This document shows, piece by piece, positions 42,422 to 59,250 of a DNA stretch of 64,000 nt (its first letter is position 1; every line of letters begins with the position of its first letter). Made by a program: the position numbers and the translations under genes. The stretch spans positions 2,232,001-2,296,000 of the forward strand of contig NZ_CP080382.1 in assembly GCF_019443425.1 (NCBI RefSeq), given 5' to 3'. The DNA is from Arthrobacter sp. PAMC25284 (GTDB lineage: Bacteria; Actinomycetota; Actinomycetes; Actinomycetales; Micrococcaceae). Below the pieces are notes generated by a model, which was given only the letters and a program-made list of their open reading frames with translations, was not told the DNA's origin and did not search any database.

Positions 42422-43393
42422 ATGGCTACTTCCGCACCCACCATCGATGTCCCTCCACAGCCCTGGACCGGGCGGTTCGACGGCGACAGCCCCGAGCACC
42501 GGCGCTGGTGGCAGGCCGTGAGCCCCTACGTGCCGCGGGCGATACCGGCAAGTTCGGCGGCCACCGCAGGGCGTCCCCGTGCGGCTGTCCTCCTCGGCTT
42601 CGGCAGCGACGAGGGGGTCCGCCGCAACAAGGGCAGGGCCGGTGCCGCAGCAGGCCCTGCGGCCATCCGTGCCGCGCTCGGTCCGCTCGCCTTCCATCTC
42701 CACCGGGAGGTGCACGACGCCGGAGACGTCACCGTGGCGGGGCAGTCGCTGGAGGCCGGACAGGCCCGCGCCGGGCTCGCCATCACGAGCCTGCTCGACG
42801 CCGGTGTGCTTCCCGTGGTGCTCGGCGGCGGGCACGAGACCGCGTTTGCCAGCTATTTGGGGATGGCCGGATCGCAGGCGGTCCGCGAGGGACTTCGGGT
42901 GGGCGTGTTGAACCTCGACGCGCATTTTGACCTCCGCGATGAACCGGCGCCCAGTTCCGGCACCCCGTTCCTTCAGATGGCCCGCGCGGAAACCGCCGCT
43001 GGCCGCGAACTGAAGTACGCCGTCGTCGGGATTTCCGAACCGGGCAACACCCGGGCGTTGTTCCGTACCGCCGCGGAGCTGGGCGTCGACTACCTGCTGG
43101 ACGAGGACTGCTCGGCGGAGAACACGCACACGTTCGTGGCGGCGTTCCTGGCACACGTCGACGCCCTATACCTGACCATCGACCTGGACGTGTTGCCGGC
43201 GTCGGTGGCGCCCGGGGTGAGCGCACCCGCCGCCTACGGGGTCCCGCTTCAGGTGATCAGCGCGGTGTGCCGCCAGGTCGCTGCGAGCGGGAAGCTGTTG
43301 CATGTGGACGTGGCTGAGCTGAACCCTGGGTTCGACATCGACGGCCGCACCGCGAAGGTGGCCGCTCGGCTGGTGAATACGCTGCTGCTGTAG
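42422..43393 (+). CDS. hutG: Formimidoylglutamase
   Basis: 323 residues of the ureohydrolase (arginase) family. Metal ligands are visible in VVLGGGHETAFASY, LNLDAHFDLRDEPAPSSGTPF and TIDLDVLPASVAPGVSAPAAYG. These carry the His, Asp and Asp residues of the binuclear Mn2+ centre. It hydrolyses N-formimino-L-glutamate to glutamate and formamide, the last step of histidine breakdown. The rest of the pathway (hutH, hutU) lies 16 kb downstream on the other strand; a shared palindrome links them. Confidence 0.9.
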   Translation: MATSAPTIDVPPQPWTGRFDGDSPEHRRWWQAVSPYVPRAIPASSAATAGRPRAAVLLGFGSDEGVRRNKGRAGAAAGPAAIRAALGPLAFHLHREVHDAGDVTVAGQSLEAGQARAGLAITSLLDAGVLPVVLGGGHETAFASYLGMAGSQAVREGLRVGVLNLDAHFDLRDEPAPSSGTPFLQMARAETAAGRELKYAVVGISEPGNTRALFRTAAELGVDYLLDEDCSAENTHTFVAAFLAHVDALYLTIDLDVLPASVAPGVSAPAAYGVPLQVISAVCRQVAASGKLLHVDVAELNPGFDIDGRTAKVAARLVNTLLL

Positions 43394-43520
43394 CGCCGAC
43401 CGGGGCCGGTGCCGGAGCCGGAGGCGTGCCATCCAGCGCCAGCGGAAGCACTGCCAGGGTTTCCTCACTGCAGCGTTTGGGGTTGTCTTTATTGTCAGAC
43501 CCCCGTGCCATGCTGAATGT

Positions 43521-45164
43521 ATGGAAAGCAGCGCAGGGTGGAGCGCAGGGTGGACTGCGGAAGGCAGAAACGCCTTTGAGGCCGTGGCCTCGTCCGTGGC
43601 TGCGCTTGCTGTTCTTGTAGGTGCCGGCGCAGACTCAACCCGGTCCTGTGATGCTGATCCGCTCCGCCGGTTGGCCGATGATTGCCTGGACACGCTTGCC
43701 GAGATTGCCCGTCTGGAGGCCCGGATCGCTGCCCTGAAAGTCCGTGCAACCGCAAAGTACCTCGAAGCTGCCAGGGCGATCGCGCCCCCGGCGGCGTCGC
43801 CCCGGGACCAGGCTGCCCAGGACATGTCGCTCGTCGCGGAGGTTGCGTGCGTCCTGACCGTCAGCGAACGGGCCGCAGGGGCTCTGCTCGCCGAGTCCCA
43901 TGCACTCACCGCAGGCCTGCCGCGGACGCTCCTTGCGCTGCAGTCCGGGGCGATCTCGTGGCAGCACGCCCGGATCATGATCGATGAAGCGGCCAGCCTC
44001 GGCGCTATAGGCGCGTCTTCGCTGGAATCCCATTTCCTGGACCCGGATGCGGTGAAACCCGCGCGCGGCTGCCCAGCCGGTGACCTCGTCCCTTCCCGGT
44101 TCCGCGCCAAGGCCAGGACCTGGCGCGAACGTCACCACCCGGTCAGCATCGAGAAGCGCCATGCCACCAGCGTCGTGGACCGTCGGCTCGAGTACGTTCC
44201 TGACCGGGACGGGATGGCCTGGGTCTCGGCGTACCTCCCGGCAGATACCGCGGCCGGGATCTGGAACAGGACCACAACCGCGGCCCGCGACCTCCAATGC
44301 CCGACCGAACCGAGGACCCTCACTCAACTCCGCGCGGACATCGCCGCCATCTGGCTACTCAGCGCGGACACCGGCGGAACCGCCACCGGCATAGCGGCAA
44401 ACGCCGCCCGGCCCGGCCACCGTGTGTCGTCCGGCGGTGCGGCATCGGCTGGCGGTGCGGCCTCCGCTGGCGGGGCGCTGGCTGGCGCGCCATTCATGCG
44501 TGTGCCCTCACCCGCTGCCCAGGTGTTGGTGACCGTGCCGGTGTTCTCGCTGATGTCCCTTACTGACGAACCCGCTATCCTCGACGGTTACGGGCCGATC
44601 CCAGCCTCCATGGCCCGCACCCTCGTCGCCGACGGCGCCACGTCTTTCCACCGCGTCCTCACAGACCCCAGCACCGGGGCGCCCCTGGAGATCGGACGGA
44701 CCAGCTACCGAATCCCGACCGCTATGCGGCAATGGCTCCGCCTCAGAGACGGTAAATGCCCCTTCCCCGGCTGCTCGGGCCAGTCCCTGGACAACGAGGC
44801 GGACCACGTCCTCGCTTGGACGCACGGCGGCACCACCGGCATCAGCAACCTCGGCCAACTGTGCCCTAAACACCACAAACTAAAACACGCCACGCAATGG
44901 ACACCTACCGAAAGCAGCCTGAACAAACCACCCGGTTGGACTTCACCAACCGGCCGCCATTACCCCAGCGAGCAGCAGGACTGGGAACCAGCGCACCGCC
45001 CCAATCAGATCCTGCACTTGCAGAAACGCATCAGCCCGGAAGACATGCCGGATTACTCGGCGCCCAAGGACGCACTACCCGAGGACCCCTTGCCCGATGC
45101 GGCTTGGCTGGCGATCCCCTGCGAGGAACCGTGCCTGGACTGGGCCCTCTGGGAGGCAGCCTAG
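43521..45164 (+). CDS. DUF222/HNH endonuclease-domain protein (13E12-type)
   Basis: 547 residues. An N-terminal helical DUF222 domain (about 50-360) is followed by an HNH module: KCPFPGCSGQSLDNEADHVLAWTHGGTTGISNLGQLCPKHHKLKH, with paired cysteines and the catalytic His in ADHVLAW. An Ala/Gly repeat (GGAASAGGAASAGGALAG) sits between. Such proteins occur in many copies in Arthrobacter and mycobacteria and are suspected to be linked to mobile elements, but the role is unknown. Confidence 0.9.
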   Translation: MESSAGWSAGWTAEGRNAFEAVASSVAALAVLVGAGADSTRSCDADPLRRLADDCLDTLAEIARLEARIAALKVRATAKYLEAARAIAPPAASPRDQAAQDMSLVAEVACVLTVSERAAGALLAESHALTAGLPRTLLALQSGAISWQHARIMIDEAASLGAIGASSLESHFLDPDAVKPARGCPAGDLVPSRFRAKARTWRERHHPVSIEKRHATSVVDRRLEYVPDRDGMAWVSAYLPADTAAGIWNRTTTAARDLQCPTEPRTLTQLRADIAAIWLLSADTGGTATGIAANAARPGHRVSSGGAASAGGAASAGGALAGAPFMRVPSPAAQVLVTVPVFSLMSLTDEPAILDGYGPIPASMARTLVADGATSFHRVLTDPSTGAPLEIGRTSYRIPTAMRQWLRLRDGKCPFPGCSGQSLDNEADHVLAWTHGGTTGISNLGQLCPKHHKLKHATQWTPTESSLNKPPGWTSPTGRHYPSEQQDWEPAHRPNQILHLQKRISPEDMPDYSAPKDALPEDPLPDAAWLAIPCEEPCLDWALWEAA

Positions 45165-45260
45165 CCAACGTGAACTCTCGCGGCAGGCCTGGGCGCCAGC
45201 CTGATCAATACGCTGCTGACATAGCGGCACTCGGGGCGGCGGGTTCAACGAGCCTTGCCT

Positions 45261-45447
45261 GCTCTGCTGACTGCCCCTGCACCGCGGACGGCGCCAGCCC
45301 TGCGGACCGCACCAACCTGCTCTGCTGACTGCCCCTGCACCGCGGACGGCGCCAGCCCTGCGGACCGCACCAACCAGCTCTGCTGACTGCCCCTATACCG
45401 CGGACGGCGCCAGCCCTGCGGACCGCCCCGGCTCTGCTGACTGCCCC
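45261..45447. repeat. 58-bp tandem repeat, about 3.3 copies
   Basis: Units begin GCTCTGCTGACTGCCCC at 45261, 45319, 45377 and 45431 (58, 58 and 54 bp apart, the last partial). Copies 1 and 2 are identical except for the last base. The minus-strand HAD gene ends inside copy 3. The unit length is not a multiple of three, so copy number changes would alter the reading of the HAD C-terminus. Confidence 0.85.
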
Positions 45448-46307
45448 ACGATCCCGTGCGCGATCCGCAGGATCTCCTCCCCGGCAAGGATTCCGGTAGC
45501 TTCGGTCACGGTCAGGTTCGGGCGGGTGTAGGCGTCGTTGTGGAGTTCCCCGTGGGCCGGACGGATCGCGATGTCCGCGAGTTCGAGGATGCCCGCGTCC
45601 AGCCGCGAATCGCCGGCAGCGACGAGCAGGCCTGCGCCGGTGCGCCGCCGGACCTCGTCCACGGCGGCTTCCTTCGTGACCGGGACAGGCACGCAGTAGA
45701 GCTTGCGCCCCTGCAGGGACGTGGTCCAGCCCCGGGCCCGGCACCACTCCTCAAGCTCTTCCGTATACCCCGCAGGCAGAGCCTGCCGGTCAACGATCGA
45801 GTAGGCGAAGATGTCTTCCGCGGTCCGGACCCGCAGGATCGCGGGAACCGCAGCCTGGCCCGTGAGCCGGTCCAGCACTTCGCGCAAGGGAGCGCATTCA
45901 GTCTTGAGTGAGCGCCGGATGTGGCGCGACCAGTCAGGATCCGGCTCGCCGTCGCGCAGCAGTACTGCTCCGTTCGTTGTGACGGCGTAGCCACGGCCGC
46001 GGCCCGGCAACCGGACCCGGGAGAACTGCGCCTGCGTGCGGGTCGTGACCGGCACGAAGACGCTCTGCTCCTTGATCGCCGCCAGCAGGTCCTCGGCCGC
46101 CCGGGTCATAAACGACAGCGGCGCCGCGTCGTAGACCTCTGAGACCACCATCCGGGGCGCCGCATTGTCAGCGCCGGCAAGCCCCATGGAGTTCGCCGAG
46201 TAGATCAGGGTCCGGTCGAGATCGCTGGCGACCATGACCGGAGCCGTTGGAGCCCCCGACGAGTGGTGCGCGGAGAAGCCGGGCGTGGAACGGTGTGCGG
46301 TGCTCAT
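45393..46307 (-). CDS. HAD-family hydrolase of the Ter biosynthetic module
   Basis: 304 residues from the ATG at 46307, overlapping the stop of the phosphoribosyltransferase gene. HAD motif I is VASDLDRTLIYS (DLDRT, Asp nucleophile), motif II lies at VPVTTRT, and the C-terminal acidic motif is AAGDSRLDAGILELAD. The last ~20 residues (GQSAEPGRSAGLAPSAV) are encoded by the 58-bp tandem repeat and look added on. HAD proteins of this type are standard members of Ter-linked gene sets, presumably acting on a phosphorylated intermediate. Confidence 0.88.
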   Translation of the reverse strand: MSTAHRSTPGFSAHHSSGAPTAPVMVASDLDRTLIYSANSMGLAGADNAAPRMVVSEVYDAAPLSFMTRAAEDLLAAIKEQSVFVPVTTRTQAQFSRVRLPGRGRGYAVTTNGAVLLRDGEPDPDWSRHIRRSLKTECAPLREVLDRLTGQAAVPAILRVRTAEDIFAYSIVDRQALPAGYTEELEEWCRARGWTTSLQGRKLYCVPVPVTKEAAVDEVRRRTGAGLLVAAGDSRLDAGILELADIAIRPAHGELHNDAYTRPNLTVTEATGILAGEEILRIAHGIVGQSAEPGRSAGLAPSAV

Positions 46308-48991
46308 AAATCGATCACGGTCTTTCCGTCCGCACCCGTGGCACCCGGGGTGTGGATCGGGTGGATCAGGCCAACGCAACTGTAGGGCAGGTCCGGCACT
46401 TCCACCACCTCAACTCCCCGTTGTTCCGCGAGGTGCAGCACATGGCTGATGTCGCCGGCCGCATCCGGATGCACCAGAACTTTCCACGGCACACGCCGCA
46501 GCAGCACGCGCGTGGTCTCGCCGACCCCTGGCTTGACGAGGTTCACGTTATTGATGCCGAACCGCCGGCTGAGCTCTTCCACCGCGGCCCATCCCGACCA
46601 GTCGGCCTCGGGGAGATCCCCAACCTGCGCGGGGACGGACGCCGTCGCGGCCATCACGTCATCCCGGACCGCTGCAAACTGCGCGGTGACGGCGTCCAGG
46701 AACGTCGTAGAGACGTCACTGCCGGCCAGGTCCGAGTAAAACTTGGCACCGTGGAAATCGCCGGGGCCGATCAGCGCCTTGTTGAAGACGGTTCGGGAAA
46801 TTAGCCCCGAGACGGTCGAGTTCAGGCAGGCGGAGGGTACGAGGTAGTCCTCCCTCGTTCCGAAGATCCGGACGCAGTGCCCGGGGTCGGCGAGGACCGC
46901 GAGATCCGCCCGGAACGCGGCGCCGTCAGTTGTCTGGAAGAGTTCGACGGCGGCTGCCAGTTCCCGGGCGATGGCACCTTTTCCCGTCCAGCCGTCAACG
47001 AACATGATGCGTTTGGGGTCGTGGCGGGCCGCGAGGTAGCCCAGGGCGGCCTGGTCGATGCCGAGCCCGCGGACGATGCTGACGGCGTAGTGCGCCAAAT
47101 CCAGGCCGTGGACCTCGCGGGCCCAGCGCTTCATCAGGATCCCGACCGGTGTTCCGGCCCGGGCGAGGGACACCAGGACGGGTGCGTTGCCGCGCAGTTT
47201 CAGGACTTGTTCGGTCAGTGTGCCGGCAGCGTGCGCGATCCGGGCGGCCGAGCGCTCCAGCGCTTCGTGGAACAGGGCACCGTACTCGGGCGAGGGTTCA
47301 AACTCCTGGGGCAGCGACTCCGCGTAGCTGGCTTTGCCGGACTGGATGGCGGCCTCGCGTTCGGCCCGGGGCGCCTCCAGCTGCGCCGAGCTCAGGTCTT
47401 TGAGCAGCCAGCGAACGTCCTCCCGTGAGTAGGAGCCAAAAGCCGGACCGGCGAGTGGTTCCGGGAATGGCGCCTGCCGGGGAAGCAACACGACCTCGAC
47501 CGCGGCACCGCTGCCCGCGACGGCCTCCGCGATCCTGCCCGGGGCCAGGAGTCGGGATGCGGGGGTGCCGGGTTCCGCAAGGATCACCACGGTGTCGAAG
47601 CGTCCCCCGGGGTGCGCGAAGTTGTACGCGAACCGGGGACCGGGTCCGTCGGCGGCATCGTCGTCGCTGTCGAAGCTGATGGCCGAGCGGATGGCGTAGC
47701 CGGGTTCGTCCACGGCCGCGACCGGGGACCGGGTGCTGGTCGAATACCGGATGTCGGCGTCGGGGCAAAGCTCCTGCAGCCGGACGGCGACGGCCAGCGG
47801 GATCGCCATGAATTCCTCGGTGGCCAGTACCAGGACGGAAGATCCTGCCGCGCCGCCGCCAAGGGCGGAGGCGACGTGCTGGGCAATTTCGGCAGCCTCT
47901 CCGGGATCGGGACGCCCGGAAACACCGAAGCGCGCGCTGCGGATCGGCGGGACGACGCCGTTCAGGTCCAGCACCCCCATCCGGCCGACACCGGTTGCGG
48001 CCTGATCCGGCACCGGAAGGCCGCTGATCAGTTCTGCCGCGTCGGCGGTGAGGCTCGCCGGCAGGTCGATGCTTCCGTGGGCCAACGCTACGGCGCTGAT
48101 ACCGGCGCCGAGTTCGAGGGCCAGGGCAGCAAACTCGGCCTGATCGGACGCAGACCGGAGGTCCACGAGCGAGGCAATGACGTACCGGCGGTGCGGGGCC
48201 GTGCGGTGGAGTTCGCGGATGGTGTTGATAATCGTCGCGCCGGTACTCAGTTCATCGTCCACCAGGACGACGGTGTCCGCCAGGTGCAGCTCGGCGCGGC
48301 CCGTCGGGAGGAGCTGATGGGAGGTCGCATGGGAATGGGACTCTTCGAACGCACCATACGGCGCCACCCCCTCGGTGCTGTGCCGGGTCGAGTGGATGTA
48401 GTAGGTGCCCAGTTGCGCGGCGACCAGCTGTCCCAGCCCGGTGGCCGTTTCTGCGTAGCCTATGGTCACGACGCCAGGAACGTCCGTCTGCTGGCCGGCC
48501 AGCAGGGCACAGAGTTCTGTCACGGCAACTGCACGGGCCCGCCGGACCGCCGGGTCCTCGGTACCAACCTCGGCACCAGCTTCGGCGCCAACACCGACGC
48601 CGGCGCCGCGAAATCCAGTCCGGCTGGTGCCCTCCGCCAGGAGGCGTTCAAGCCGGTCCGCGGCCTCCTCGATGACCGCGGCGAGCGGCGTCGGGGATGC
48701 GGCTGCCGGGTCCCCGGCGGCGGGGTGGTCGGGATCCCGCTGGAGTTCCTGCCGGACCAACAGGCCCAGCAGCCAACCGGCCGCCGTCGCGATCCCGGGT
48801 TCGGTGGGAACGTGCTTGGCGAGGACGCGGGACACAAGCAGGTGCGCCCGTTTCGGGTTGCGCCGCAGTGCCAGCCCGACCAGGGAGCGCACCGGCAGGA
48901 CACTGTGCCCTGGTGCCGACGCCACGTCGACGCCGAGGGCATCACGCACGTAGCTTCCGCTCCAGGGGGCGTCGGTCCGGATGACCTTCAT
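46304..48991 (-). CDS. Fused double phosphoribosyltransferase (PRTase_2-TRSP plus StiP/PRTase_1-like)
   Basis: 895 residues. The N-terminal half has a phosphoribosyltransferase domain (about 150-330) with YIHSTRHSTEGVAPYGAFEESHSHATSHQLLP and the PRPP loop TVVLVDDELSTGATIINTIRELH, then a TRSP-like segment (RFGVSGRPDPGEAAEIAQHVASALGG). The C-terminal half (from about 540) is a second such unit: YSREDVRWLLKDLS, LVSLARAGTPVGILMKRWA and RIMFVDGWTGKGAIARELA, as in the StiP/PRTase_1 family. Comparative work on Ter systems proposed that these make a nucleoside-like compound. Here the two parts, often separate genes, are one polypeptide. It overlaps its neighbours by four bases on each side. Confidence 0.85.
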   Translation of the reverse strand: MKVIRTDAPWSGSYVRDALGVDVASAPGHSVLPVRSLVGLALRRNPKRAHLLVSRVLAKHVPTEPGIATAAGWLLGLLVRQELQRDPDHPAAGDPAAASPTPLAAVIEEAADRLERLLAEGTSRTGFRGAGVGVGAEAGAEVGTEDPAVRRARAVAVTELCALLAGQQTDVPGVVTIGYAETATGLGQLVAAQLGTYYIHSTRHSTEGVAPYGAFEESHSHATSHQLLPTGRAELHLADTVVLVDDELSTGATIINTIRELHRTAPHRRYVIASLVDLRSASDQAEFAALALELGAGISAVALAHGSIDLPASLTADAAELISGLPVPDQAATGVGRMGVLDLNGVVPPIRSARFGVSGRPDPGEAAEIAQHVASALGGGAAGSSVLVLATEEFMAIPLAVAVRLQELCPDADIRYSTSTRSPVAAVDEPGYAIRSAISFDSDDDAADGPGPRFAYNFAHPGGRFDTVVILAEPGTPASRLLAPGRIAEAVAGSGAAVEVVLLPRQAPFPEPLAGPAFGSYSREDVRWLLKDLSSAQLEAPRAEREAAIQSGKASYAESLPQEFEPSPEYGALFHEALERSAARIAHAAGTLTEQVLKLRGNAPVLVSLARAGTPVGILMKRWAREVHGLDLAHYAVSIVRGLGIDQAALGYLAARHDPKRIMFVDGWTGKGAIARELAAAVELFQTTDGAAFRADLAVLADPGHCVRIFGTREDYLVPSACLNSTVSGLISRTVFNKALIGPGDFHGAKFYSDLAGSDVSTTFLDAVTAQFAAVRDDVMAATASVPAQVGDLPEADWSGWAAVEELSRRFGINNVNLVKPGVGETTRVLLRRVPWKVLVHPDAAGDISHVLHLAEQRGVEVVEVPDLPYSCVGLIHPIHTPGATGADGKTVIDL

Positions 48992-50169
48992 CGCATGCTC
49001 GCTTCCAGTAACTCCACAAAATTTACTCCGGGCCGGGCAACACCGAAGGCCCGGGCACGCAGCAGGGTGCGTTCCGCCCAGGCGCGGTGCGGTTTCGACT
49101 CGTTCATCTTGTTGCCATAGGACGACGCCTTCACACCGCCCCCCGCGCTGGCGGCAATATCCAGGGCGTCAAGATATTCTTCGTGGCTCACCACGCAGAG
49201 GGAATGCACGACGGGAACGTGGCTTGGGTGGATGACGGTCTTGCCCAGCAGCCCGTTGGCCAGGTCCAGTTCAATCTCGCGGATCAGGCCGTCCAGGTTT
49301 TCCAGTAGGAGACGCTGGCGCAACGCGCCTTCGTTGACTGCTTCAAAGGGCGTGGCCCGCAATTGCGGGCGCAGCACCCGTTCGGTGTTGACGTAGTGCT
49401 CCCATACCGGGCCGGAGATGACCCAACCGTCCTTCGGCCGACCGAAAATGTTCACGACGTCGCCGATGATGTTGGCGACGACCTTGACGTTGTAGATGGT
49501 CAGGTCCCGCGAACGCCGCAGCCCGAAGGCGCTGGACATGTCCGTTGCCCCGATCCGGACGCAGAGCACCAGATCGCGGAACTCCTCGATCAGTGCCAGA
49601 TTGTCCGTCAGCACCCGGACCCGCGACTCCAGATGGGTTGTCGACAGGTCCTCGATGATCGGCATGGCCCGCAACACGGGGGTTTCGGGCGTCCCGCGGC
49701 CGGTCTCCAGGTTAAGGAGCCGCAGCGCTTCCAGAAACGCGCGTCCGCGCCCGGTCTCGTTCTCGAACTTCGGCAGAACAAAGCCGTAGACGACATGGAG
49801 GGATTCGCCGGCGCGCCGTCCGATATCGAGCAGTTGTTCCGGCGTGCGGCAGCGAATGAAGATCAGTGGCAGTTCCGCCCGGACGTCCGGCGCGTCAAGT
49901 TCCCGCAGGGCCGCGAGCAGGTTGCTTTCCGCCCCGGGCAACTCGTCATCCGCCACGGCGTCTTCAAGGCAAATAACGGCGCTCATGCATCCGGCCCGGG
50001 CCTGTTTCAGCAGGCCTTTCGCCAGGCCGTCCCGTGAACCCGGCGAATACAGGGTGGCGCCCAGGGCGACGGCAAGCAGGCCCGGGTCCGAGGTGTGGTG
50101 CAGCACCTCGGGGCGCAGGTGGAATAGCCGGTTTTGGACAGATTCAGCCAAGGCTGCGAAGTGCTGCAT
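48988..50169 (-). CDS. HpcH/HpaI (citrate-lyase-like) aldolase of the Ter module
   Basis: 393 residues, TIM-barrel lyase fold. MSAVICLEDAVADDELPGAE is the conserved metal-site region of the HpcH/CitE group, with LIFIRCRTPEQLLDI, VLPKFENETGRG and RIGATDMSSAFGLRRS further on. Such proteins are recurrent in Ter-linked biosynthetic modules. It probably forms or breaks a C-C bond in building the predicted metabolite; substrate unknown. Coupled (ATGA) to the double phosphoribosyltransferase gene. Confidence 0.85.
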   Translation of the reverse strand: MQHFAALAESVQNRLFHLRPEVLHHTSDPGLLAVALGATLYSPGSRDGLAKGLLKQARAGCMSAVICLEDAVADDELPGAESNLLAALRELDAPDVRAELPLIFIRCRTPEQLLDIGRRAGESLHVVYGFVLPKFENETGRGRAFLEALRLLNLETGRGTPETPVLRAMPIIEDLSTTHLESRVRVLTDNLALIEEFRDLVLCVRIGATDMSSAFGLRRSRDLTIYNVKVVANIIGDVVNIFGRPKDGWVISGPVWEHYVNTERVLRPQLRATPFEAVNEGALRQRLLLENLDGLIREIELDLANGLLGKTVIHPSHVPVVHSLCVVSHEEYLDALDIAASAGGGVKASSYGNKMNESKPHRAWAERTLLRARAFGVARPGVNFVELLEASMR

Positions 50170-50206
50170 TTGTGCCCCTCGGGGTTAGCGGTGCCGGGCT
50201 GCCTGG

Positions 50207-51028
50207 TTAGCGCGGAAGGACGTGTTGGTCCAGGGGAATGGTCATCGTGAACCCGAAAATTTCCCAGATGGCGGCGTCGGAGGCTTCCGCCGGGACGAAC
50301 TCAGCGCGGAGTTCAAGGACCGCCCCTATCCGGGAAATATACAGCACGGACCGCTGGCCGTCGTCGTCCACGGCCGGAACTGCGGCGGCGGCGCCGTCGA
50401 AGACTCCGATCGTGAGCGGAGTCTCGCCCGCGATAAACAGGGCGCGGCGGAGCAGCTGCACGTGGCGCAGCGACACCACCCCGGCGGAGTCCTGGATACC
50501 GACCAGAGGCCGGTTGCCGGGCGTTCTGACTGCAGCGCCCGCTGTGTGCCCGTGACTGTGGTGGGCGCCGGTAGTGAAGTCCTCACCCTCCCACGCGACC
50601 GCCCGGACGCCGGTCACCAGGAGCGAGCCAATGGCCGACTGTCGTGCGTTCAGGCGCGCCACGGGGTGCGCCCCGTCGAGTTGGCGGAGGTCGCCGAAGC
50701 CGGGGGCAGGAAAGGCCCGGTTCGGGGCCGCAACGCTGGAGCGGGCCGCCGGAGCAGGCCGGGATGACGCGGGCTGGAGGTTGAGCCCGGCACCAGGCTG
50801 GCTCCCGGCTGAAGACGCAGCTGCCGGGGCGCGGGATACGAGATTCAGCGAGGCCGCCGGGGCGCGGGTTCCGGCTGAAGACGCGGCTGCCGGGGCGCGG
50901 TTGCCGAGACTAAGCGTGGCGCCTGCAGCAGCCGCGGCAGGCGTTACGGGGGGTGGCGTTTCCGCGGGTTTCCGCCGACGACGGAGATAATCCAGGTCTG
51001 CCCTGATGGCGGTTCGGTCGCGGACCAT
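50207..51028 (-). CDS. TerA-like protein with TerD-type C-terminal domain
   Basis: 273 residues. A basic start (MVRDRTAIRADLDYLRRRRK) precedes a ~90-residue Ala/Pro/Ser linker built from APAAASSAG repeats. The folded part (about 105-273: LNARQSAIGSLLVTGVRAVAWEGEDFTT ... SVLYISRIGAVLELRAEFVPAEASDAAIWEIFGFTMTIPLD) resembles TerA-type members of the TerD superfamily. Its start is 1 bp after the stop of the TerD gene before it, so they are one transcript. Confidence 0.7.
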   Translation of the reverse strand: MVRDRTAIRADLDYLRRRRKPAETPPPVTPAAAAAGATLSLGNRAPAAASSAGTRAPAASLNLVSRAPAAASSAGSQPGAGLNLQPASSRPAPAARSSVAAPNRAFPAPGFGDLRQLDGAHPVARLNARQSAIGSLLVTGVRAVAWEGEDFTTGAHHSHGHTAGAAVRTPGNRPLVGIQDSAGVVSLRHVQLLRRALFIAGETPLTIGVFDGAAAAVPAVDDDGQRSVLYISRIGAVLELRAEFVPAEASDAAIWEIFGFTMTIPLDQHVLPR

Positions 51029-51029
51029 G

Positions 51030-51581
51030 TCAGAGCTTCAGCCTGAAATCGGCGGCAACGGCGGCGAGCCCGGTTTCGTAGCCCTGGCCAAGGGCGCGGA
51101 ATTTCCAGCCCCCACCGTGCCGGTAGAGTTCGCCGAGGATCATGGCGTTGATCTTGTCCATGTTCACCGGTGGAACGTCGAAGCGGAGCAACTCACGGTT
51201 CTCTTCATCGGCTACCCGGAGATAGGTGTTCCTGACCGCGCCGAAGGTGCCGGGGCCGCGCACATCCGGGTCGATATACACGAGCACGGCGATTTTGCTG
51301 ACGCTATCAGGCACCCGGTTGAGGTCGACGTCGATCTGCTCCTGGTCCTCCGTTCCAGCGAAAGCAATGCTTCCCTCGGGGCTGGCGATCTGGTTGAAGA
51401 ACACGAGGTGCTCGTCCGAGACGGCGCGCCCGTCCGGTCCGCACATAATGACCATGGGGACCGGTTCGGACTGCGGACCGCGGCTCGGCACCGTGTCCCA
51501 GCCGATGCCCAGCAGCACTTTCCCCAGATCCGGGTTTTCTGCGGTGAGGGCGGCGTTGCTGCCCGCGACCATCGAAGCCAC
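51030..51581 (-). CDS. TerD-family protein (divergent)
   Basis: 183 residues starting at a GTG that overlaps the upstream stop (TAGTG). TerD features: LGKVLLGIGWDTVP, VFFNQIASPEGSIAF, MILGELYRHGGGWKFRALGQGYETGLAAVAADFRLKL. The acidic calcium loop that reads GEGDGDDE in the paralogues is AGTEDQEQ here, so this copy probably binds Ca2+ weakly or not at all. Confidence 0.9.
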   Translation of the reverse strand: MASMVAGSNAALTAENPDLGKVLLGIGWDTVPSRGPQSEPVPMVIMCGPDGRAVSDEHLVFFNQIASPEGSIAFAGTEDQEQIDVDLNRVPDSVSKIAVLVYIDPDVRGPGTFGAVRNTYLRVADEENRELLRFDVPPVNMDKINAMILGELYRHGGGWKFRALGQGYETGLAAVAADFRLKL

Positions 51582-52114
51582 TAGTGTCCTTCCAAACGAA
51601 GACCGTCAACGTTAAATTTGTCCCTCAGGAACTGGCCATGGACGGCCAGTTCCGTTATGGCCCCCGTGCGGACCTGATGATCGAGATTCCTGGCCGTGGA
51701 ATGCAGCGTGTCCAGTTGCTCCAGCAAGCCCGTCGTCTGGGCCGAGTCCACGGTCCGCGCCGGCCGGCCGAGCAGCAGATACGTGTGCAGCGGGGACGGC
51801 ATGTAGTCGGTGATGACCGCGTTCAGCAGTACGCGCTGCTCCGTGGACGCACCGGAGCGTTCGATGTAGCCGATCAGCGCGCCAAGGGTGTCCAGGAGCT
51901 GCAGAACTTGTGAGAGGACAAGGGTGGGCAGTTCAGCGCCTTTGCCAAGCACCGTCCGGCGCAGATCATGGAGCGCCGCCTTGGTGACCGCCAGTTCCTC
52001 CGCCGCAGGATCGGCGGACCCGGAAGCCGGTTCAGGCTGGCCCTCACCTGAGCCGGCAGCGGAACGGGGATCCGATCCGCTGCCGAACAAGGAGCCTAAG
52101 AATTTTGCGACCAT
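51581..52114 (-). CDS. Ter-operon hypothetical protein
   Basis: 177 residues; family not recognised. A disordered N-terminus (FLGSLFGSGSDPRSAAGSGEGQPEPASGSADPAAEE) is followed by a helical domain (LAVTKAALHDLRRTVLGKGAELPTLVLSQVLQLLDTLGALIGYIERSGASTEQRVLLNAVITDYMPSPLHTYLLLGRPARTVD...). No signal peptide, no membrane helix. It lies between telA and a terD gene, so a role with TelA is likely. Confidence 0.75.
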   Translation of the reverse strand: MVAKFLGSLFGSGSDPRSAAGSGEGQPEPASGSADPAAEELAVTKAALHDLRRTVLGKGAELPTLVLSQVLQLLDTLGALIGYIERSGASTEQRVLLNAVITDYMPSPLHTYLLLGRPARTVDSAQTTGLLEQLDTLHSTARNLDHQVRTGAITELAVHGQFLRDKFNVDGLRLEGH

Positions 52115-52148
52115 AGCCCGTAAGCCTATTGCTCAGGGCTGGATGCCG

Positions 52149-53348
52149 CTAATTCCCCTCCTGCTGGCGGACGCGGTCCAGGTACGGACGGGCCCGCTCC
52201 AAGCCAGATTCGAGGGCATGGACGGTGCCTTCCATGTTCTTGTTGGCCTGTGAGCGGAACGTGTCGATCGCATCCATGGTCTGGAAGACGTTGTCGAACG
52301 CTTTCTGCAGGGTTTCGACGTTGACGCCGGAGCTGGCCGCCTGCTGGTGGATCCGGCCAGTCTGATCCTTGAGCATCTCGCTGGTCTTGAGGATCATGTT
52401 GTTCGTGGTGGTGTTGATGGCATCAATCTGATCCAGGACCATCTTCTGGTTGGCAAGGGCCTGGGCCACGATGACTGCGGTACGCAGCGCCGAGATCGTG
52501 GTGGTGCGTGCCCGTTCGACACCCTTTATCAGCTCGGTGTTGTTCTTGCGGATCATGTCGATGGCAAGGTAACCCTGCACGGAGACGGCCAACTGCGTCA
52601 GGATGTCCTGATGCCGTTGACGGATGGGGAACAGCACGTCCGCATCAATCTTGTTCGCCTCCTCAATCTGGCCCGACATCTTCATGTCGTCGATCTTGGC
52701 GGCGGTGGCGGCGTCCAGTGCCTTGGCGAAGACGGCGTATTCGCTTAGCCCCTGCATGGTCTCCCAGAGCTGGGTTTTTTCCTGCGCGAGGGAGGCATTG
52801 TCTTTGAGCAGCGAATCCTGCCCGGCCATCAGCGACTTGATGATCTTGTCCAGCTGGGTCTGGGCCGACTCGTACTTCTGGAAGTACTTGGCCAGTTTGT
52901 TGCCGCCGGGGATGATGCCCAGGATCTTGCGGCCTACGCTCAAGTCGCTCTGGTTCGGCGTGAGATCCTCCACGGTGGAGCGGAGTTCGCCGAGCGTGGA
53001 AGCGACCTGCACCTGGGCGCTGCTGCCGGATTTCTTGGCACCCGCCAGGGAGGTGGACGACCGTTCGAGCAGACGGCTGGAGGTGTTGGCGGATGCCACC
53101 AGCTCAGCGCCGGCCAGACGGTTGATGCCATCGATCTTGCTGGTGTACTCGGGGCTGTGCGGGTTCATCGCCGCGATCTCGCTGACGAACGCGCGGGCCT
53201 GGGCGTTGATCTCCTGCTGCCGTTCGGCAGGGACCGGGACCATGCCCGGAGCATCATCCTCTTTGACGATACTCAAGGGTTCCGGTGCGTTCAGTACAAG
53301 GTCCGTCGGTGAGGCTGCCTCGGGGGGTGTGAGTTGCATGCTCATCAT
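52149..53348 (-). CDS. telA: TelA-family toxic anion resistance protein
   Basis: 399 residues, all-helical, no membrane segment. Typical TelA blocks: FQKYESAQTQLDKIIKSLMAGQDSLLKDNASLAQEKTQLWETMQGLSEYAVFAKALDA and PIRQRHQDILTQLAVSVQGYLAIDMIRKNNTELIKGVERARTTTISALRTAVIVAQALANQKMVLDQI. TelA works with Ter proteins in resistance to tellurite and various stresses; the mechanism is not settled. Start is one of two adjacent ATGs after GAGAGAGA. Confidence 0.93.
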   Translation of the reverse strand: MMSMQLTPPEAASPTDLVLNAPEPLSIVKEDDAPGMVPVPAERQQEINAQARAFVSEIAAMNPHSPEYTSKIDGINRLAGAELVASANTSSRLLERSSTSLAGAKKSGSSAQVQVASTLGELRSTVEDLTPNQSDLSVGRKILGIIPGGNKLAKYFQKYESAQTQLDKIIKSLMAGQDSLLKDNASLAQEKTQLWETMQGLSEYAVFAKALDAATAAKIDDMKMSGQIEEANKIDADVLFPIRQRHQDILTQLAVSVQGYLAIDMIRKNNTELIKGVERARTTTISALRTAVIVAQALANQKMVLDQIDAINTTTNNMILKTSEMLKDQTGRIHQQAASSGVNVETLQKAFDNVFQTMDAIDTFRSQANKNMEGTVHALESGLERARPYLDRVRQQEGN

Positions 53349-53370
53349 TCTCTCTCTTTAATCGCGGAGC

Positions 53371-53952
53371 TTAGCCGAGCTGGACACCGAAGTCGGAGGC
53401 AATGCCTGCCAACCCGGTGGCGTAGCCCTGGCCGACTGCCTTGAACTTCCACTCGCCGTTGTGCCGGTAGAGCTCTGAGAAAATCATGCAGGTCTCAGGG
53501 GCCGCGTCTTCGCTGAGGTCATAGCGCACCACTTCGGCGTCGGTCTCGTGGTTCACGACGCGGCAGTAGGCGGCGCGCACCTGGCCAAAGTTCTGGCGGC
53601 GGGACTCTGCCTGGTCAATGGAAACCACGAAGACGATGCGCTCAACATCCGAGCCCACGGCGGAGAGTTCGATAGCGATCACTTCATCGTCGCCGTCACC
53701 CTCACCGGAGCGGTTGTCACCCTTGTGGACTACCGAGCCGTCGGCCGCGGCCGGCTGGTTGTAGAAGATGAAATCGGCGGAACTGCGCACCTTGCCATCG
53801 GCCCCGAGCAGGAGCGCGGAGGCGTCCAGATCGAACTGATCGCCGGTGGTCGTCCGGGGATCCCAGCCGAGTCCGACATGAACCTTGTTCAACCCGGGAT
53901 CGGTTTTGGTGAGCGAGAGATTACTGCCTTTGGTAAGGGTCAAGCCAGCCAT
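53371..53952 (-). CDS. terD: TerD-family calcium-binding stress protein
   Basis: 193 residues. MAGLTLTKGSNLSLTKTDPGLNKVHVGLGWDPRTTTGDQFDLDASALLL is the classical TerD start, and DNRSGEGDGDDEVIAIELS holds the acidic calcium site. C-terminal ELYRHNGEWKFKAVGQGYATGLAGIASDFGVQLG. Good ribosome site CAGGAG. It is a near-duplicate of the next TerD protein, showing local duplication. Confidence 0.95.
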   Translation of the reverse strand: MAGLTLTKGSNLSLTKTDPGLNKVHVGLGWDPRTTTGDQFDLDASALLLGADGKVRSSADFIFYNQPAAADGSVVHKGDNRSGEGDGDDEVIAIELSAVGSDVERIVFVVSIDQAESRRQNFGQVRAAYCRVVNHETDAEVVRYDLSEDAAPETCMIFSELYRHNGEWKFKAVGQGYATGLAGIASDFGVQLG

Positions 53953-53989
53953 GCTTTTACTCCTGGTTCAGTCTGTGGGGTGGTGGGGG

Positions 53990-54018
53990 CTGGTGTCCCG
54001 GACGTCCGGGACCACCAG
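53990..54018 (-). repeat. Near-palindromic hairpin between two terD genes
   Basis: GTCCCGGAC-GTCCGGGAC is close to an 18-bp perfect palindrome at its centre, flanked by CTGGTG and CCACCAG arms with one unpaired base. It sits in the 70-bp gap between duplicated terD genes and may balance their expression by mRNA stabilisation or partial termination. Confidence 0.6.
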
Positions 54019-54022
54019 GTTG

Positions 54023-54604
54023 CTAGTCCAGTGAGATGCCGAAATCAGTGGCCACGCCGTGCAGCCCGGAGGCGTATCCCTGCCCGACGGCACGGAATTT
54101 CCATTCAGCGTTGTGGCGGTAGATCTCGGCGAAGACCATGCAGGTTTCCGCGGCGGCGTCCTCGGTGAGGTCGTAGCGGACAACCTCGTTGTCGGTCTCC
54201 TGATTGACGACGCGGCAGAAGGCGTCCCGCACCTGTCCGAAGTTCTGCCGGCGGGACTCTGCCTGGTCGATGGAAACAACAATGACGATCTTCTGGATGT
54301 CGGGGGCCACGGCGTCCAGATCGATCAGGATTTGCTCGTCGTCGCCGTCGCCTTCGCCGGTGCGGTTGTCGCCCTGGTGCACGACTGAACCGTCCGCTGC
54401 TGACAACTGGTTGTAGAAGATGAAATCGTCATTCGAGCGGACCTTGCCGTCAGCCCGGACAAGCAGCGCTGACGCGTCGAGGTCGAACTGTTCTCCCGCC
54501 GTGGTCCGGGGGTCCCAGCCCAGGCCGATCATGGCCTTGCGGAGCCCCGGATCGGCCTTTGTCAGGGACAGATTGCTGCCCTTGCTCAGAGTCAAGCTAG
54601 CCAC
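54023..54604 (-). CDS. terD: TerD-family calcium-binding stress protein
   Basis: 193 residues beginning with GTG at 54604 after AAGGAGGAAAC. MASLTLSKGSNLSLTKADPGLRKAMIGLGWDPRTTAGEQFDLDASALLV; calcium loop in DNRTGEGDGDDEQILIDL; ending ASGLHGVATDFGISLD. Same length as, and very similar to, the terD product at 53371. Cytosolic; the family is linked to tellurite resistance and oxidative or envelope stress. Confidence 0.95.
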   Translation of the reverse strand: MASLTLSKGSNLSLTKADPGLRKAMIGLGWDPRTTAGEQFDLDASALLVRADGKVRSNDDFIFYNQLSAADGSVVHQGDNRTGEGDGDDEQILIDLDAVAPDIQKIVIVVSIDQAESRRQNFGQVRDAFCRVVNQETDNEVVRYDLTEDAAAETCMVFAEIYRHNAEWKFRAVGQGYASGLHGVATDFGISLD

Positions 54605-54633
54605 GTTTCCTCCTTGGGTGCGTGAATTCAGAC

Positions 54634-55226
54634 TTAGAGAGCGGCGGCGGCCGCGCCGAGTACCTCGCCCGCGGTGCGGCCGTTGGCTGGCGCCCCGATC
54701 GCCTGGAAGTTCCAGGTACTGCCGTTCCTGGAGAGCTTCGACATAATCATCGCCGTGTTCTGGCCCGCCTCGGTAAGGGAGTATCGCGCTACTTCCGGGC
54801 TGCCGGCCACGGAGTCGTCGATGACGCGGCAGAAGGCGTTCTGAACCATGTCAAATGTCTGCTTGCTGTAGCTCGTGATGACAAAAACGATGTTCGCCAC
54901 TGCCGGGGAAACGCCGGGCAGGTTCACCATGAGGGTCTCGTCGTCGCCGTCGCCGGCGCCGGTCAGGTTATCCCCGGTGTGGCGGACCGAACCGTCTTTG
55001 CTGGTGAGCTGATTGAAGAACACTGTATCCAGGTGCTTGCCGGCGGCGTCGAACATGATGGCGGAGGCATCCAGATCGATCTCAACAGTTTTGGTGCCGC
55101 CGAAGAAGCCTTTTTTCACTGGAACCGCGGAATCCCAGCCGAGGGCCCCAGCCGGACGTTGGTCAGGGAGTCACCATTCTGCTTCGTCAGTGACAGTGAC
55201 TGGCCTTTTTGCAAACTCAAACCCAT
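54634..55226 (-). pseudogene. terD: TerD-family protein, frameshifted (+2)
   Basis: The start at 55226 gives MGLSLQKGQSLSLTKQNGDSLTNVRLG, a standard TerD N-terminus. The frame then hits GPSAGIPRFQ and a stop. The correct continuation LGWDSAVPVKKGFFGGTKTVEIDLDASAIMF is two bases out of phase. One extra G and one extra C within 55143-55149 explain this, and ~196 residues result. The calcium motif DNLTGAGDGDDETLMVNL is intact. A shorter open frame from 55119 lacks the N-terminal strand and is not the real start. Confidence 0.85.
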
Positions 55227-55286
55227 GATTTACTCGCTTTCCATCGTGTTGGTCATGAAAGGTGCTCTGATGCCTGCCGGAAGCGG

Positions 55287-56396
55287 TCAGATAGTCGTAT
55301 TGGCTGATTCCTGCGGTTTTTTCACTTCGGCAGCCGCACGCCGGTTGCGCAGCACGGAGCCGATCAAAGCGGCGCCGATGAAGATCACGCCGATGAGGCC
55401 CGTGATGACTTCGTTGACGGGAATCTCGATGGTGATCAGCAGAATGATTGCCAGCGCACCAACGGCCCAGTGCGCGCCGTGGTCGAGGTATTCGAATTCG
55501 TCCAGCGTTCCCTCGCGGACCAGGAAGACGGTCAGGGAGCGGACGAACATGGCGCCGATGAAGCCCAGTCCGAGCGCGATGATGATGGGGTCGGACGTGA
55601 TGGCAAAAGCCCCGATGACTCCGTCGAACGAGAAGGAGGCGTCGATGACTTCCAAGTACAGGAAGAGCATAAAAGCAGCCTTGCCGGCCAGCTTGGCGGG
55701 AGCGGAGGGGCCCGAGCGCCCTCCAGATTCGGCGCCCACGGCGTCGATGACATCGTCCTCGCCCACATCGAAGAGGTTTCCGAGCCCGTTAACCAGGAAG
55801 TAGGTGATCATGCCAAGCAGCCCCGAGAACAGAACGATTCCCTGCTTCTCGCCGGCAACGGCACCGGTTAGGGCCAGTGCGATCATTCCGAGGATCAGGG
55901 ACGCGCTGTCGAGCTTGCCGACCTTCGCGAGCGGTACTTCGAGGATCCTGATCCACTTGATGTCCCGTTGGGCGAGGATGAAGTCCAGGAAGAGCATCAG
56001 GAGGAACATTCCGCCGAAGGCCGCGATCTGCGGGTGCGCTTCGTGCAGGACGTAGCCGTAGCTGCCCGGAGTCTCCGGATCGCCCTTTTCCATGGCGAGG
56101 CTGATGGCGTCGACGGGATTCAGCCCGGCGGTGACCCCCACGATCAGGAGCGGGAAGAGGATGCGCATGCCGAACACGGCGATGATGATGCCCACGCTCA
56201 GGAACATTTTCTGCCAGAAGGCATTCATCCGCTCCAGGATTCTGGCGTTGACCACTGCGTTGTCGAAGCTCAGGCTGACTTCGAGGATACCCAGGATGAT
56301 GCAGAGAATGAGCGCCTGGGGGCCGCCATAGAGAAAGGCCACCACCAGTGCGACGATAGTGACCGCGAACGACCAACCGAATGTCTTGAGGAACAA
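55287..56396 (-). CDS. TerC-related DUF475 integral membrane protein
   Basis: 369 residues, about nine membrane helices. The TerC-like signature EVSLSFDNAVVNARILERMN lies in the second helix, and a second copy SFSFDGVIGAFAITSDPIIIALG follows. The intervening loop (MEKGDPETPGSYGYVLHEAHPQI) is typical of DUF475. The start is a TTG at 56396 with CAGGAG upstream. It is the first gene of the Ter operon and could be the membrane ion-handling partner of the TerD proteins. A membrane Ter complex has been described for E. coli TerC with TerD-type proteins. Confidence 0.9.
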   Translation of the reverse strand: MFLKTFGWSFAVTIVALVVAFLYGGPQALILCIILGILEVSLSFDNAVVNARILERMNAFWQKMFLSVGIIIAVFGMRILFPLLIVGVTAGLNPVDAISLAMEKGDPETPGSYGYVLHEAHPQIAAFGGMFLLMLFLDFILAQRDIKWIRILEVPLAKVGKLDSASLILGMIALALTGAVAGEKQGIVLFSGLLGMITYFLVNGLGNLFDVGEDDVIDAVGAESGGRSGPSAPAKLAGKAAFMLFLYLEVIDASFSFDGVIGAFAITSDPIIIALGLGFIGAMFVRSLTVFLVREGTLDEFEYLDHGAHWAVGALAIILLITIEIPVNEVITGLIGVIFIGAALIGSVLRNRRAAAEVKKPQESANTTI

Positions 56397-56603
56397 GCTG
56401 GGACAACTCCTGGAGCGATGGTCGTACCGGTCCAGGACCGCACGACGGTGTTAACATCCCGGAAGCTATCCCCCCAAGACTTCGTGCAACCATCTTAGCC
56501 GCCGGGTCCGGCCCTATCCAGCGATGTCCTCCACCAGCGCAAAGCCGCCAACGCGAAGCCGTTGCCTGACCAACGCAGATTGCCGTATCGCGCGTGACGT
56601 TGG

Positions 56604-58598
56604 TCAGCCGGCACTTGTGTGCGCGTCACGGGTGTCCGCCGAAGTCCGGTACGCGTCCCGCCACTCGTCGAAGGCCGCTGCGGGGACGGGCCGGCAGAGG
56701 TAGAAGCCCTGGGCGCTGTCACAGTCGAAGGTAGTCAGATGGTTGAGCGCCTCGGCCGTCTCCACCCCCTCGGCGAGCACAGTCATACCCAGATTGTGGC
56801 CAAGGTCGATGATGCTGTGGGCGATGAGGGCATCGCTTGGCTCCAGGCCCATGTTGAGGATGAAGGATTTATCTATCTTGATCTCGGTGATCGGCAGGTT
56901 CTTGAGCTGCCCCAGGCTCGTGTATCCCGCGCCGAAGTCGTCGATGGACAGCCGGATGCCCATGAGTGCGAGCATCGCCAGTAGTCGCTGGGCCTGAACG
57001 GGCTCTGCCATGAGCGCGCTCTCCGTTATCTCAAGCTCCAGCAGTTCCGCGGGGACCCGGTGTTTGGCCAGCGACTCGGCGACCTGCTGCGGCAGCCCGT
57101 CGTCCAGCAGGCTCCGGGCGGAGAGATTGACGGATACGGTGAGGGGCGCTCCCGCGTCGATCCAAATCCTGGCTTGAGCCAGCGCAGAGTCCAGCACGTG
57201 GCTGGTCAGGGGCCCGATCAAGCCAGTGTGCTCGGCCAGCGGGATGAAGGCATCCGGCGAAATCAGGCCCTTGACGGGGTGCTCCCAGCGGATGAGTGCC
57301 TCCGCGCCGACGATTTCCCCGCTCGTCAGATTCACCTTGGGCTGGTAGTGCAGAACCAGCTGGCCGCTGCTGAGGGCGCGGCGCAAATCTCCGAGCAGGG
57401 CAAGCTTCGCCGGGCTGTGTGCGTCCACCGACGGGTCGTAGGCGAAGACACCGAGGTTTTGGGTCTTGGCGATGTACATTGCGACGTCCGCGCGTTGCAG
57501 CAGCACCGTGGGTTCATTCCCATGTTCACCGGAAAGGACCACCCCGACGCTGGCTTCGACGTCGAGGTCCACGCCTTCCACCGTAAAGGGCTCCTCGAGA
57601 ACGGCGCGCAACCTGCAGCCGATTTCCACGGCAGCCCCGGAATCTGCGATTTCCGGCAGCAATATAGCGAATTCATCCCCGCCCAGCCGGGCCATCGTCT
57701 GGCCCTCCCCCAGCACGGAGCACATCCTGTCACCGACCAGCTTGAGCAGTTCGTCCCCGTAGTGGTGACCGAACGTGTCATTGATTTCCTTGAACCTGTC
57801 CAGGTCGATGAGCAATAGCGCAGCTGTGGTTCCCGAGCGTTCGGCGGCGGACAGCGCCCGCCGGCACCGCTCAAAGAGCAGGGTGCGGTTGGGCAATCCC
57901 GTCAGGGAGTCGTGCAACGAATCGTGGAGCGCCTGGCGACGCTCGGCATCCAGCAGCCTGCGGTGGCCGTGGTTTACCCACGTCATCGCCATTGTCAGGA
58001 GCAGACCCACGATGAAAACCCACGGCGTCAGCCGGCTGGTGAGCGTCTCCAGCTCCCGGAGCTCCGCGAGCTTCGCCACGACATCGTCATGGTGACTGGC
58101 TGCGGCCCCGTGAACCGCCTCCGCTATGGCATCGAAAAGGGGCTCGGTCTCCCGCTGGTCAAGATCCAGGACAAGGGCCAGGTCGCCGGCGTCGACGGCA
58201 TCGAACATTCGTTTGATTGACGCGAGGTAGTCCTGATGGTCCAACCGAAGTTCTTCCGCACGTGCACGGTCGGCCTGGTTGCCATTGGCGGCGACGAGAT
58301 CCAGGGCCTGCACCAGATCGGCGGCTACGTCATCGAATTTTTCCCGCACCCCGGGGCCAGGCTCGAGCCGGTACTTGCGCTCCAATGATTCTTCCGCCGA
58401 GACGGCGCGATCGGCCCGGTCATAATGATCGGACAGCATAGCCGCCACGTCCGCCGCGTGGGCAGCCCGCGACATCGCCTGGGATGACCAGATGGCGAAG
58501 CTGCTGACACCGACCAGAACCGCGACCAGTACGATGCTCGCGATGCGGCTGTGCAAAGTTGTCCGGTCCGCGGCTGGTGCCTTTGGTCGTTCACTCAT
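56604..58598 (-). CDS. Membrane GGDEF-EAL protein (c-di-GMP turnover)
   Basis: 664 residues from the ATG at 58598 (GGAGGAATCG upstream). A helix near 20-38, a ~150-residue outer four-helix-type sensor, then a second helix (WVFIVGLLLTMAMTWVNHG), a GGDEF domain (LTGLPNRTLLFERC, DLDRFKEINDTFGHHYGDELL, ARLGGDEFAILLPE) and an EAL domain (GAEALIRWEHPVKG, SVNLSARSL, LLELEITESAL, IDDFGAGYTSLGQLKNLPITEIKIDKSFI, TVLAEGVETAE). Both active sites look complete, so it could make or degrade c-di-GMP. The RxxD feedback site is absent. Confidence 0.94.
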   Translation of the reverse strand: MSERPKAPAADRTTLHSRIASIVLVAVLVGVSSFAIWSSQAMSRAAHAADVAAMLSDHYDRADRAVSAEESLERKYRLEPGPGVREKFDDVAADLVQALDLVAANGNQADRARAEELRLDHQDYLASIKRMFDAVDAGDLALVLDLDQRETEPLFDAIAEAVHGAAASHHDDVVAKLAELRELETLTSRLTPWVFIVGLLLTMAMTWVNHGHRRLLDAERRQALHDSLHDSLTGLPNRTLLFERCRRALSAAERSGTTAALLLIDLDRFKEINDTFGHHYGDELLKLVGDRMCSVLGEGQTMARLGGDEFAILLPEIADSGAAVEIGCRLRAVLEEPFTVEGVDLDVEASVGVVLSGEHGNEPTVLLQRADVAMYIAKTQNLGVFAYDPSVDAHSPAKLALLGDLRRALSSGQLVLHYQPKVNLTSGEIVGAEALIRWEHPVKGLISPDAFIPLAEHTGLIGPLTSHVLDSALAQARIWIDAGAPLTVSVNLSARSLLDDGLPQQVAESLAKHRVPAELLELEITESALMAEPVQAQRLLAMLALMGIRLSIDDFGAGYTSLGQLKNLPITEIKIDKSFILNMGLEPSDALIAHSIIDLGHNLGMTVLAEGVETAEALNHLTTFDCDSAQGFYLCRPVPAAAFDEWRDAYRTSADTRDAHTSAG

Positions 58599-59085: not shown

Positions 59086-59167
59086 CGAACTTCTACCCCT
59101 TTGTATTGGTTCTTTTGCCACAACATCATTGGTGTGGGCTTAATCACTACACGCTTAGTTCTACTAC

Positions 59168-59222: not shown

Positions 59223-59250
59223 AGTCATCTGCAATGCCGAATATTCACTT

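Follow-up and report, generated by a model that had tools for sequence, protein, structure and literature searches.

A four-domain fusion with two predicted phosphoribosyltransferase folds in the Ter operon of Arthrobacter sp. PAMC25284

Our analysis of a 64,000-nucleotide stretch of the Arthrobacter sp. PAMC25284 genome (NZ_CP080382.1, positions 2,232,001 to 2,296,000; hereafter the window) identified a Ter operon of eleven genes, every one on the minus strand and inside positions 45393-56396, in which a single 895-residue protein joins the domains PRTase_2, TRSP, StiP, and PELOTA in that order, with Pfam scores far beyond chance. A sequence-only reading of the same DNA had listed the operon from DUF475 through HAD, and all of the listed genes were present; its description of the fusion as two phosphoribosyltransferase (PRTase) units held for both units but left the TRSP and PELOTA domains unnamed. 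PRTase_2, StiP, an HpcH-like lyase, and a HAD protein adjoin TerD, TelA, and TerC-type genes, a gene content that fits the Ter-linked biosynthetic module to which that reading had assigned the locus. We consider it moderately likely that the locus is the actinobacterial form of this known module and that it makes a phosphoribosylated small molecule that is dephosphorylated by the HAD protein. The best reading of its core is a set of four activities: an adenine phosphoribosyltransferase (APRT)-like PRTase, the divergent PRTase StiP with a PELOTA tail, a C-C lyase, and a HAD phosphatase. The features, in window coordinates, are as follows.

55287..56396, minus strand: DUF475/TerC-family membrane protein, 369 aa (PF04332 2.2e-122, PF03741 2.8e-15)
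54634..55119, minus strand: TerD1, disrupted open reading frame without its N-terminal part (PF02342 from profile position 35)
54023..54604, minus strand: TerD2, 193 aa (PF02342 1.2e-81, own-genome search)
53371..53952, minus strand: TerD3, 193 aa (PF02342 5.4e-81)
52149..53348, minus strand: TelA, 399 aa (PF05816 2.9e-83)
51581..52114, minus strand: uncharacterised 177-aa protein, described as helical in the sequence-only reading (no Pfam match; aligned with 13 relatives)
51030..51581, minus strand: divergent TerD, 183 aa (PF02342 7.1e-49)
50207..51028, minus strand: 273-aa protein, previously called TerA-like (no Pfam match; aligned with relatives)
48988..50169, minus strand: HpcH/CitE-like C-C bond lyase, 393 aa (PF15617 3.7e-106)
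46304..48991, minus strand: PRTase_2-TRSP-StiP-PELOTA fusion, 895 aa (Pfam)
48074..48883, minus strand: PRTase_2 domain, residues 37-306 (Pfam 7.7e-59; predicted APRT-like fold)
47567..47938, minus strand: TRSP domain, residues 352-475 (PF12500 1.8e-24)
46688..47437, minus strand: StiP domain, residues 519-768 (PF11202 1.3e-101; predicted PRTase fold)
46361..46600, minus strand: PELOTA domain, residues 798-877 (PF15608, PELOTA_1, 1.7e-34; L7Ae-like)
45393..46307, minus strand: HAD phosphatase (weak HAD-IIB matches; solved "trehalose phosphatase" relative)

The fusion is natural and recurrent. PRTase_2 and StiP share one frame in 16 of 25 related loci from named genomes, and all four domains were found in 118 of the 120 homologues listed for the whole protein, the window's own included (6120 of 7997 candidates in this search fell under an E value of 0.001, and the domain counts refer to the best 120). 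An assembly join of two genes, named in the sequence-only reading as a possible source of the long frame, was looked for and is ruled out by these two counts. The closest named relatives of the fusion come from Arthrobacter and Pseudarthrobacter, with identity of up to 76%, and in one of the 16 fused loci (L021) StiP is broken by a later frame change. The two domains are encoded by two genes in seven of the 25 loci, one of which (L028) has the HAD gene in between; the split genes are adjacent in the other six, with a 4-base stop/start overlap in five (ATGA in four, GTGA in one), the StiP start of L022 being unsure. Two loci have no PRTase_2 match (L029 and L027, the contig of the latter starting inside StiP). 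StiP was found in 12 of 246 phylum genomes, 11 of them over the cut-off, and in 18 of 149 family genomes, where nine matches lay in frames of at least 905 residues and nine in frames of at most 653; PRTase_2 and StiP lay in frames of equal length in all nine same-class genomes tested, and many relatives encode the two as separate genes. On a quick tree built from 82 StiP rows, hand-picked from 361 and with split rows taken from contigs longer than 7 kb, the fused or split state needs about nine changes and starred branches force at least five changes for the split label, counts to be read with the caveat that some labels may be wrong owing to draft frames and gene calls and that outgroup branches are long. 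This recurrence argues for a physical association of both PRTases; the channelling of the two transferase steps assumed in the sequence-only reading does not follow from it. Two database labels were conspicuous. A fusion labelled Burkholderia sp. RS01 (P0156) is 75% identical to that of the window, and this record is probably contaminated or mislabelled; L028 is titled Azospirillum sp. RU38E, but the record of the identical StiP protein names Niveispirillum sp. BGYR6 as its source.

Confident structure models of both halves indicated two predicted PRTase folds, in line with the earlier proposal, and the alternative outcome of only one such fold was not found. The PRTase_2 half combines the modelled fold with an acidic phosphoribosyl pyrophosphate (PRPP) motif, DDELSTG, at residues 245-251; it shares about 15-19% identity with adenine phosphoribosyltransferase and its relatives in the alignments listed, and differs from them in its fused TRSP domain. 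The StiP half adopts a PRTase fold in a confident model compared in VIA and Foldseek, and carries the motifs S608..R611-A-G and D666-G-W-T-G-K-G. An alignment of 361 StiP rows (the window's C-terminal half, listed homologues, and two loci, with near-duplicates kept) revealed that S608, R611, A612, G613, S638, G644, D646, D666, W668, G672, S732, and R733 are invariant, with H634 in 360 rows and H747 in 359. The residue after D666 is glycine in 360 of the 361 rows, so that the vicinal acidic pair of the PRPP loop is missing. Because uracil PRTases likewise lack this pair, its absence does not single out the glycan PRTases. CriT, as described in excerpts of PMC10299916, also lacks the pair and uses acids from two loops instead.

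In VIA, the StiP model ranked the glycan O-phosphoribosyltransferases first (CriT-CrpP of Haemophilus influenzae type b [Hib] Bcs3, 8a0c/8a0m; Thermobacillus 7shg), followed by PyrR as the next best fold. These enzymes also resemble the window in placing a PRTase fold beside a HAD, but they differ in that the window has no capsule or glycan context and its StiP carries an L7Ae-like tail. Glycan PRTases were not among the Foldseek top 50 for the C-terminal half, nor among the PDB sequence-profile matches, and 7shg was not among the 50 VIA rows listed in one StiP comparison. StiP is likely to be a PRPP-using transferase; that it forms an O-glycoside rather than an N-glycoside is a tentative suggestion. 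It is unlikely that StiP, or the fusion as a whole, is instead a PRTase-derived sensor or scaffold of weak catalytic activity, which would bind PRPP or nucleotides in a PyrR-like manner and regulate the Ter response: the rank of PyrR and the lost vicinal acid would suit such a role, but neither the PRPP-loop aspartate nor the pyrophosphate-type loop varies across the 361 rows, and the HAD and lyase genes that accompany it in the loci seen point to chemistry.

To our eye, the order of helices and strands in the TRSP model looks like that of a reduced PRTase. No profile match was obtained for TRSP as a third, degenerate PRTase; these profile tests are uninformative, since PRTase_2 against StiP, run as the positive control, gave nothing either. 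The PELOTA profile matched the PDB chains of Rpp38, L7Ae, and Snu13 (best E value, 0.0042), and K820, P821, G822, G824, E825, T827, and R828 are each present in at least 97% of the 361 rows. RNA binding by PELOTA is possible. These matches to RNA-binding proteins, together with the first rank of O-phosphoribosyltransferases for the StiP model, could be taken to mean that the module acts on RNA, with PELOTA positioning the RNA, StiP attaching or exchanging a phosphoribosyl group, and PRTase_2 and HAD making or recycling its partners. We regard this as distinctly unlikely, as no Rfam family reached its gathering score over 43000-60000 (four matches up to an E value of 1, each far under it), L7Ae folds can take on other functions, and the lyase, HAD and, elsewhere, ATP-grasp fit a small molecule better.

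The lyase profile matched malyl-CoA and citrate lyases in the PDB (3e-9), and R106, E173, R205, and D210 are kept in 16 of 16 rows. The HAD gene probably starts at ATG 46307, not at the TTG of the longest open reading frame (45393-46379), because the ATG start results in an ATGA overlap with the stop of the fusion. The HAD protein had no Pfam match up to an E value of 1 and weak HAD-IIB matches in NCBIfam, and its DxD, T/S, K, and GDxxxD motifs are present (D55, T112, K236, G256, D257, and D261 in all 16 rows; D53 in the 14 rows extending that far). A profile of these 16 rows matched the PDB entries 6d3v/6d3w/6cj0, deposited as "Trehalose phosphatase", at 2.9e-33 over 233 positions, the sole strong PDB match (the next was 0.00036). 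The solved chain belongs to another lineage than the window's HAD, and its aligned stretch shares 99.6% identity with a gene on one Pseudomonas aeruginosa plasmid and 93.7% with genes on others; near-identical genes stand at L054 11983-12741 (99.6%) and L057 6983-7741 (93.7%) within Ter operons of Pseudomonas plasmids. This ties the solved "trehalose phosphatase" to Ter operons, which is a new link. HAD matches occurred in 2474 of 72,556 plasmid records, and in all four records opened, StiP, PRTase, and HpcH genes stood beside the HAD match, the neighbour in two Pseudomonas records being the near-identical counterpart of the solved chain rather than the match of the window's HAD.

The chances that the HAD protein dephosphorylates the module's phosphoribosyl product appear about even. 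The solved structure reportedly comes from Cross et al. 2018. The deposited name of this sole strong relative invites the reading that HAD is a true trehalose-6-phosphate phosphatase (TPP) and that the module concerns trehalose or another phosphorylated disaccharide, not a nucleoside. Excerpts of PMC6838324, which do not identify the solved chain, report that an extrachromosomal TPP of P. aeruginosa was assayed as a phosphatase. Such a role has a small chance of being correct: the annotated genes of the three gammaproteobacterial plasmid stretches include no trehalose-phosphate synthase, the own genome holds a separate Trehalose_PPase match over the cut-off in an 893-aa frame elsewhere, and the neighbours of HAD are PRTases.

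The weakest alternative, that StiP is a cysteine protease and the fusion thus couples a single PRTase with a protease processing Ter proteins under stress, takes its name from Pfam PF11202 and from the source names of many homologues and is highly improbable, as the confident model matched PRTases with no protease among the 50 VIA or the 50 Foldseek rows listed, the PRTase-type loops are invariant, the best cysteine column of the alignment holds cysteine in 239 of 361 rows and isoleucine or valine elsewhere, and no biochemical source for the name was found in a brief literature search and a passage of PMC12111023. The "cysteine protease" label of StiP in Pfam and NCBI records is thus not supported here.

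The sequence-only reading had also remarked that the ATP-grasp member often listed with such modules was not visible, and our searches agreed. The operon contains no ATP-grasp (PF15632), and the genome gave one 26.4-bit match below the cut-off, in a 1116-aa frame that by its size would be carbamoyl-phosphate synthase. ATP-grasp matches above 100 bits within 10 kb of StiP were found in two of nine proteobacterial StiP genomes (G252, on which the proteobacterial sample was centred, and G275) and in none of 35 actinobacterial genomes (the own genome and 34 others, among which G130 and G210 have StiP only as distant or weak matches). Where present, actinobacterial matches above 100 bits lay on other contigs, which in draft genomes does not exclude nearness to StiP, or at least about 250 kb off; in G333, a 42-bit match stands 23 kb away from StiP. 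An ATP-grasp gene was present in all three gammaproteobacterial plasmid stretches, and none is annotated in a Mycolicibacterium plasmid. We read ATP-grasp as an optional, non-defining member of the module. The Ter ATP-grasp at L054 7017-8015 also matches PF14397, a sugar-transfer associated ATP-grasp family, below the cut-off (1.2e-05), which would suit a sugar-linked product.

The Ter-linked biosynthetic module was described by Anantharaman, Iyer and Aravind in 2012; it reportedly includes an HpcH-like lyase, as the Pfam names also suggest. The window resembles this module in its PRTases, HAD, and HpcH-like lyase beside TerD, TelA, and TerC-family genes, but differs in that its PRTases are joined with TRSP and PELOTA in a single chain, no ATP-grasp is linked, and two uncharacterised proteins and a divergent TerD precede the lyase. 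The Ter operons on P. aeruginosa and Klebsiella plasmids (L054, L055, L057) likewise have a row of PRTase, HAD-type, StiP, and HpcH genes near TerD, TerB, and TerC, but as four separate genes with HAD between the PRTases, an ATP-grasp, and TerC/Alx in place of DUF475. In L054 and L057, the HAD gene lies between PRTase and StiP, followed by HpcH, HAD, and TerD, with TerB and TerC further on; on the Klebsiella plasmid, ATP-grasp and PRTase are followed by an unnamed gene at the position of the HAD match and then by StiP and HpcH.

From the observed gene content, overlaps, natural fusion, modelled folds, active-site-type motifs, and HAD relation, we infer a possible order of steps. The lyase would prepare a base-like or carboxylate acceptor, onto which PRTase_2 would transfer 5-phosphoribosyl from PRPP; StiP would carry out a second PRPP-dependent transfer; and HAD, whose solved relative is named for trehalose-6-phosphate, a phosphorylated disaccharide, would take off the phosphate. 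The resulting small nucleoside-like product may work together with the operon's own TerD, TelA, and TerC-family proteins, and it could conceivably be a signal sensed by TerD, although we hold this only tentatively. A nucleoside-like product of Ter modules is a general proposal repeated in the parts of PMC7824862 and PMC8115787 that bear on it, and the latter also shows that terZ-F suffices for tellurite resistance. A more specific and doubtful variant is an O-ribosylated product, in which PRTase_2 would form a ribonucleotide-like intermediate, StiP would attach a second ribofuranosyl-5-phosphate to a hydroxyl as the capsule glycan PRTases do, and HAD would strip the phosphate, the acceptor being the PRTase_2 intermediate or an RNA held on the L7Ae-like tail. 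If this were true, a disaccharide nucleoside or a ribosylated RNA would stand behind the "nucleoside-like metabolite", and the proteins called "cysteine protease StiP" would be a family of O-phosphoribosyltransferases.

The sequence-only reading knew of no biochemistry for this gene set. The literature searched (titles and abstract openings) offered no biochemistry that connects Ter operons with trehalose phosphatase, StiP, or PRTases, but the statement has to be amended for HAD, whose relative has structures deposited as trehalose phosphatase and genes in Ter operons. The StiP fold without a conserved cysteine, the repeated fusion, the optional ATP-grasp, and the solved phosphatase kin together point to a minimal four-activity set, which gives a concrete assay (the fusion with PRPP and candidate acceptors, and HAD afterwards), and the solved relative makes the product of the module easier to test for.

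The host, a Micrococcaceae-type soil bacterium, has a genome of 3.88 Mb in one contig. The genes of the operon are tightly packed: an ATGA overlap joins the stop of the lyase to the start of the fusion, another joins the fusion stop to the HAD start if HAD begins at ATG 46307, and the stop of the 177-aa gene shares one base with the start of the divergent TerD. The order of all eleven genes is kept in nine of 11 Arthrobacter/Pseudarthrobacter loci, the two deviating ones (L008 and L009) being without full DUF475 and TerD2 matches, and variants of the order occur in Sinomonas, Sanguibacter, Micromonospora, Yinghuangia, and Actinomadura. Because StiP is present in two of the eight same-genus genomes listed, the operon is patchy within the genus. 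Promoter-like sites numbered 3 against 1.2 expected and terminator-like sites 8 against 7.0 expected, and PADLOC returned just PRTase_III-A (0.00093) and JetA (0.0035) for nine proteins.

The name TerA-like, given earlier to the 273-aa protein, is unsupported because this protein has neither similarity to the local TerD profile nor a Pfam match; its N-terminal part is rich in proline and alanine, its C-terminal part is conserved, and its three PDB matches were at chance level (best E value, 1.4). A 346-aa protein on the Mycolicibacterium plasmid (L056 5403-6443) stands in the same place before HpcH, with no Pfam match over the cut-off. The PDB profile matches of the 177-aa protein were mostly coiled-coil stretches of viral spikes (best E value, 7.2e-05), which we read as chance. 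One TerD had been described as frameshifted, and in TerD1 (54634-55295) the start and the remainder indeed sit in different frames, at a place read through in one frame by all nine relatives examined, with L010 deviating at its C-terminal end. A sequencing indel in this assembly is a fair possibility, with mutation as the alternative, because a second gene, the Trehalose_PPase match at G000:C1:1937490-1938060 outside the window, is likewise spread over two frames. On either side of the operon lie a DUF222-HNH gene (43521-45164, plus strand) and a GGDEF-EAL gene (56604-58616, minus strand).

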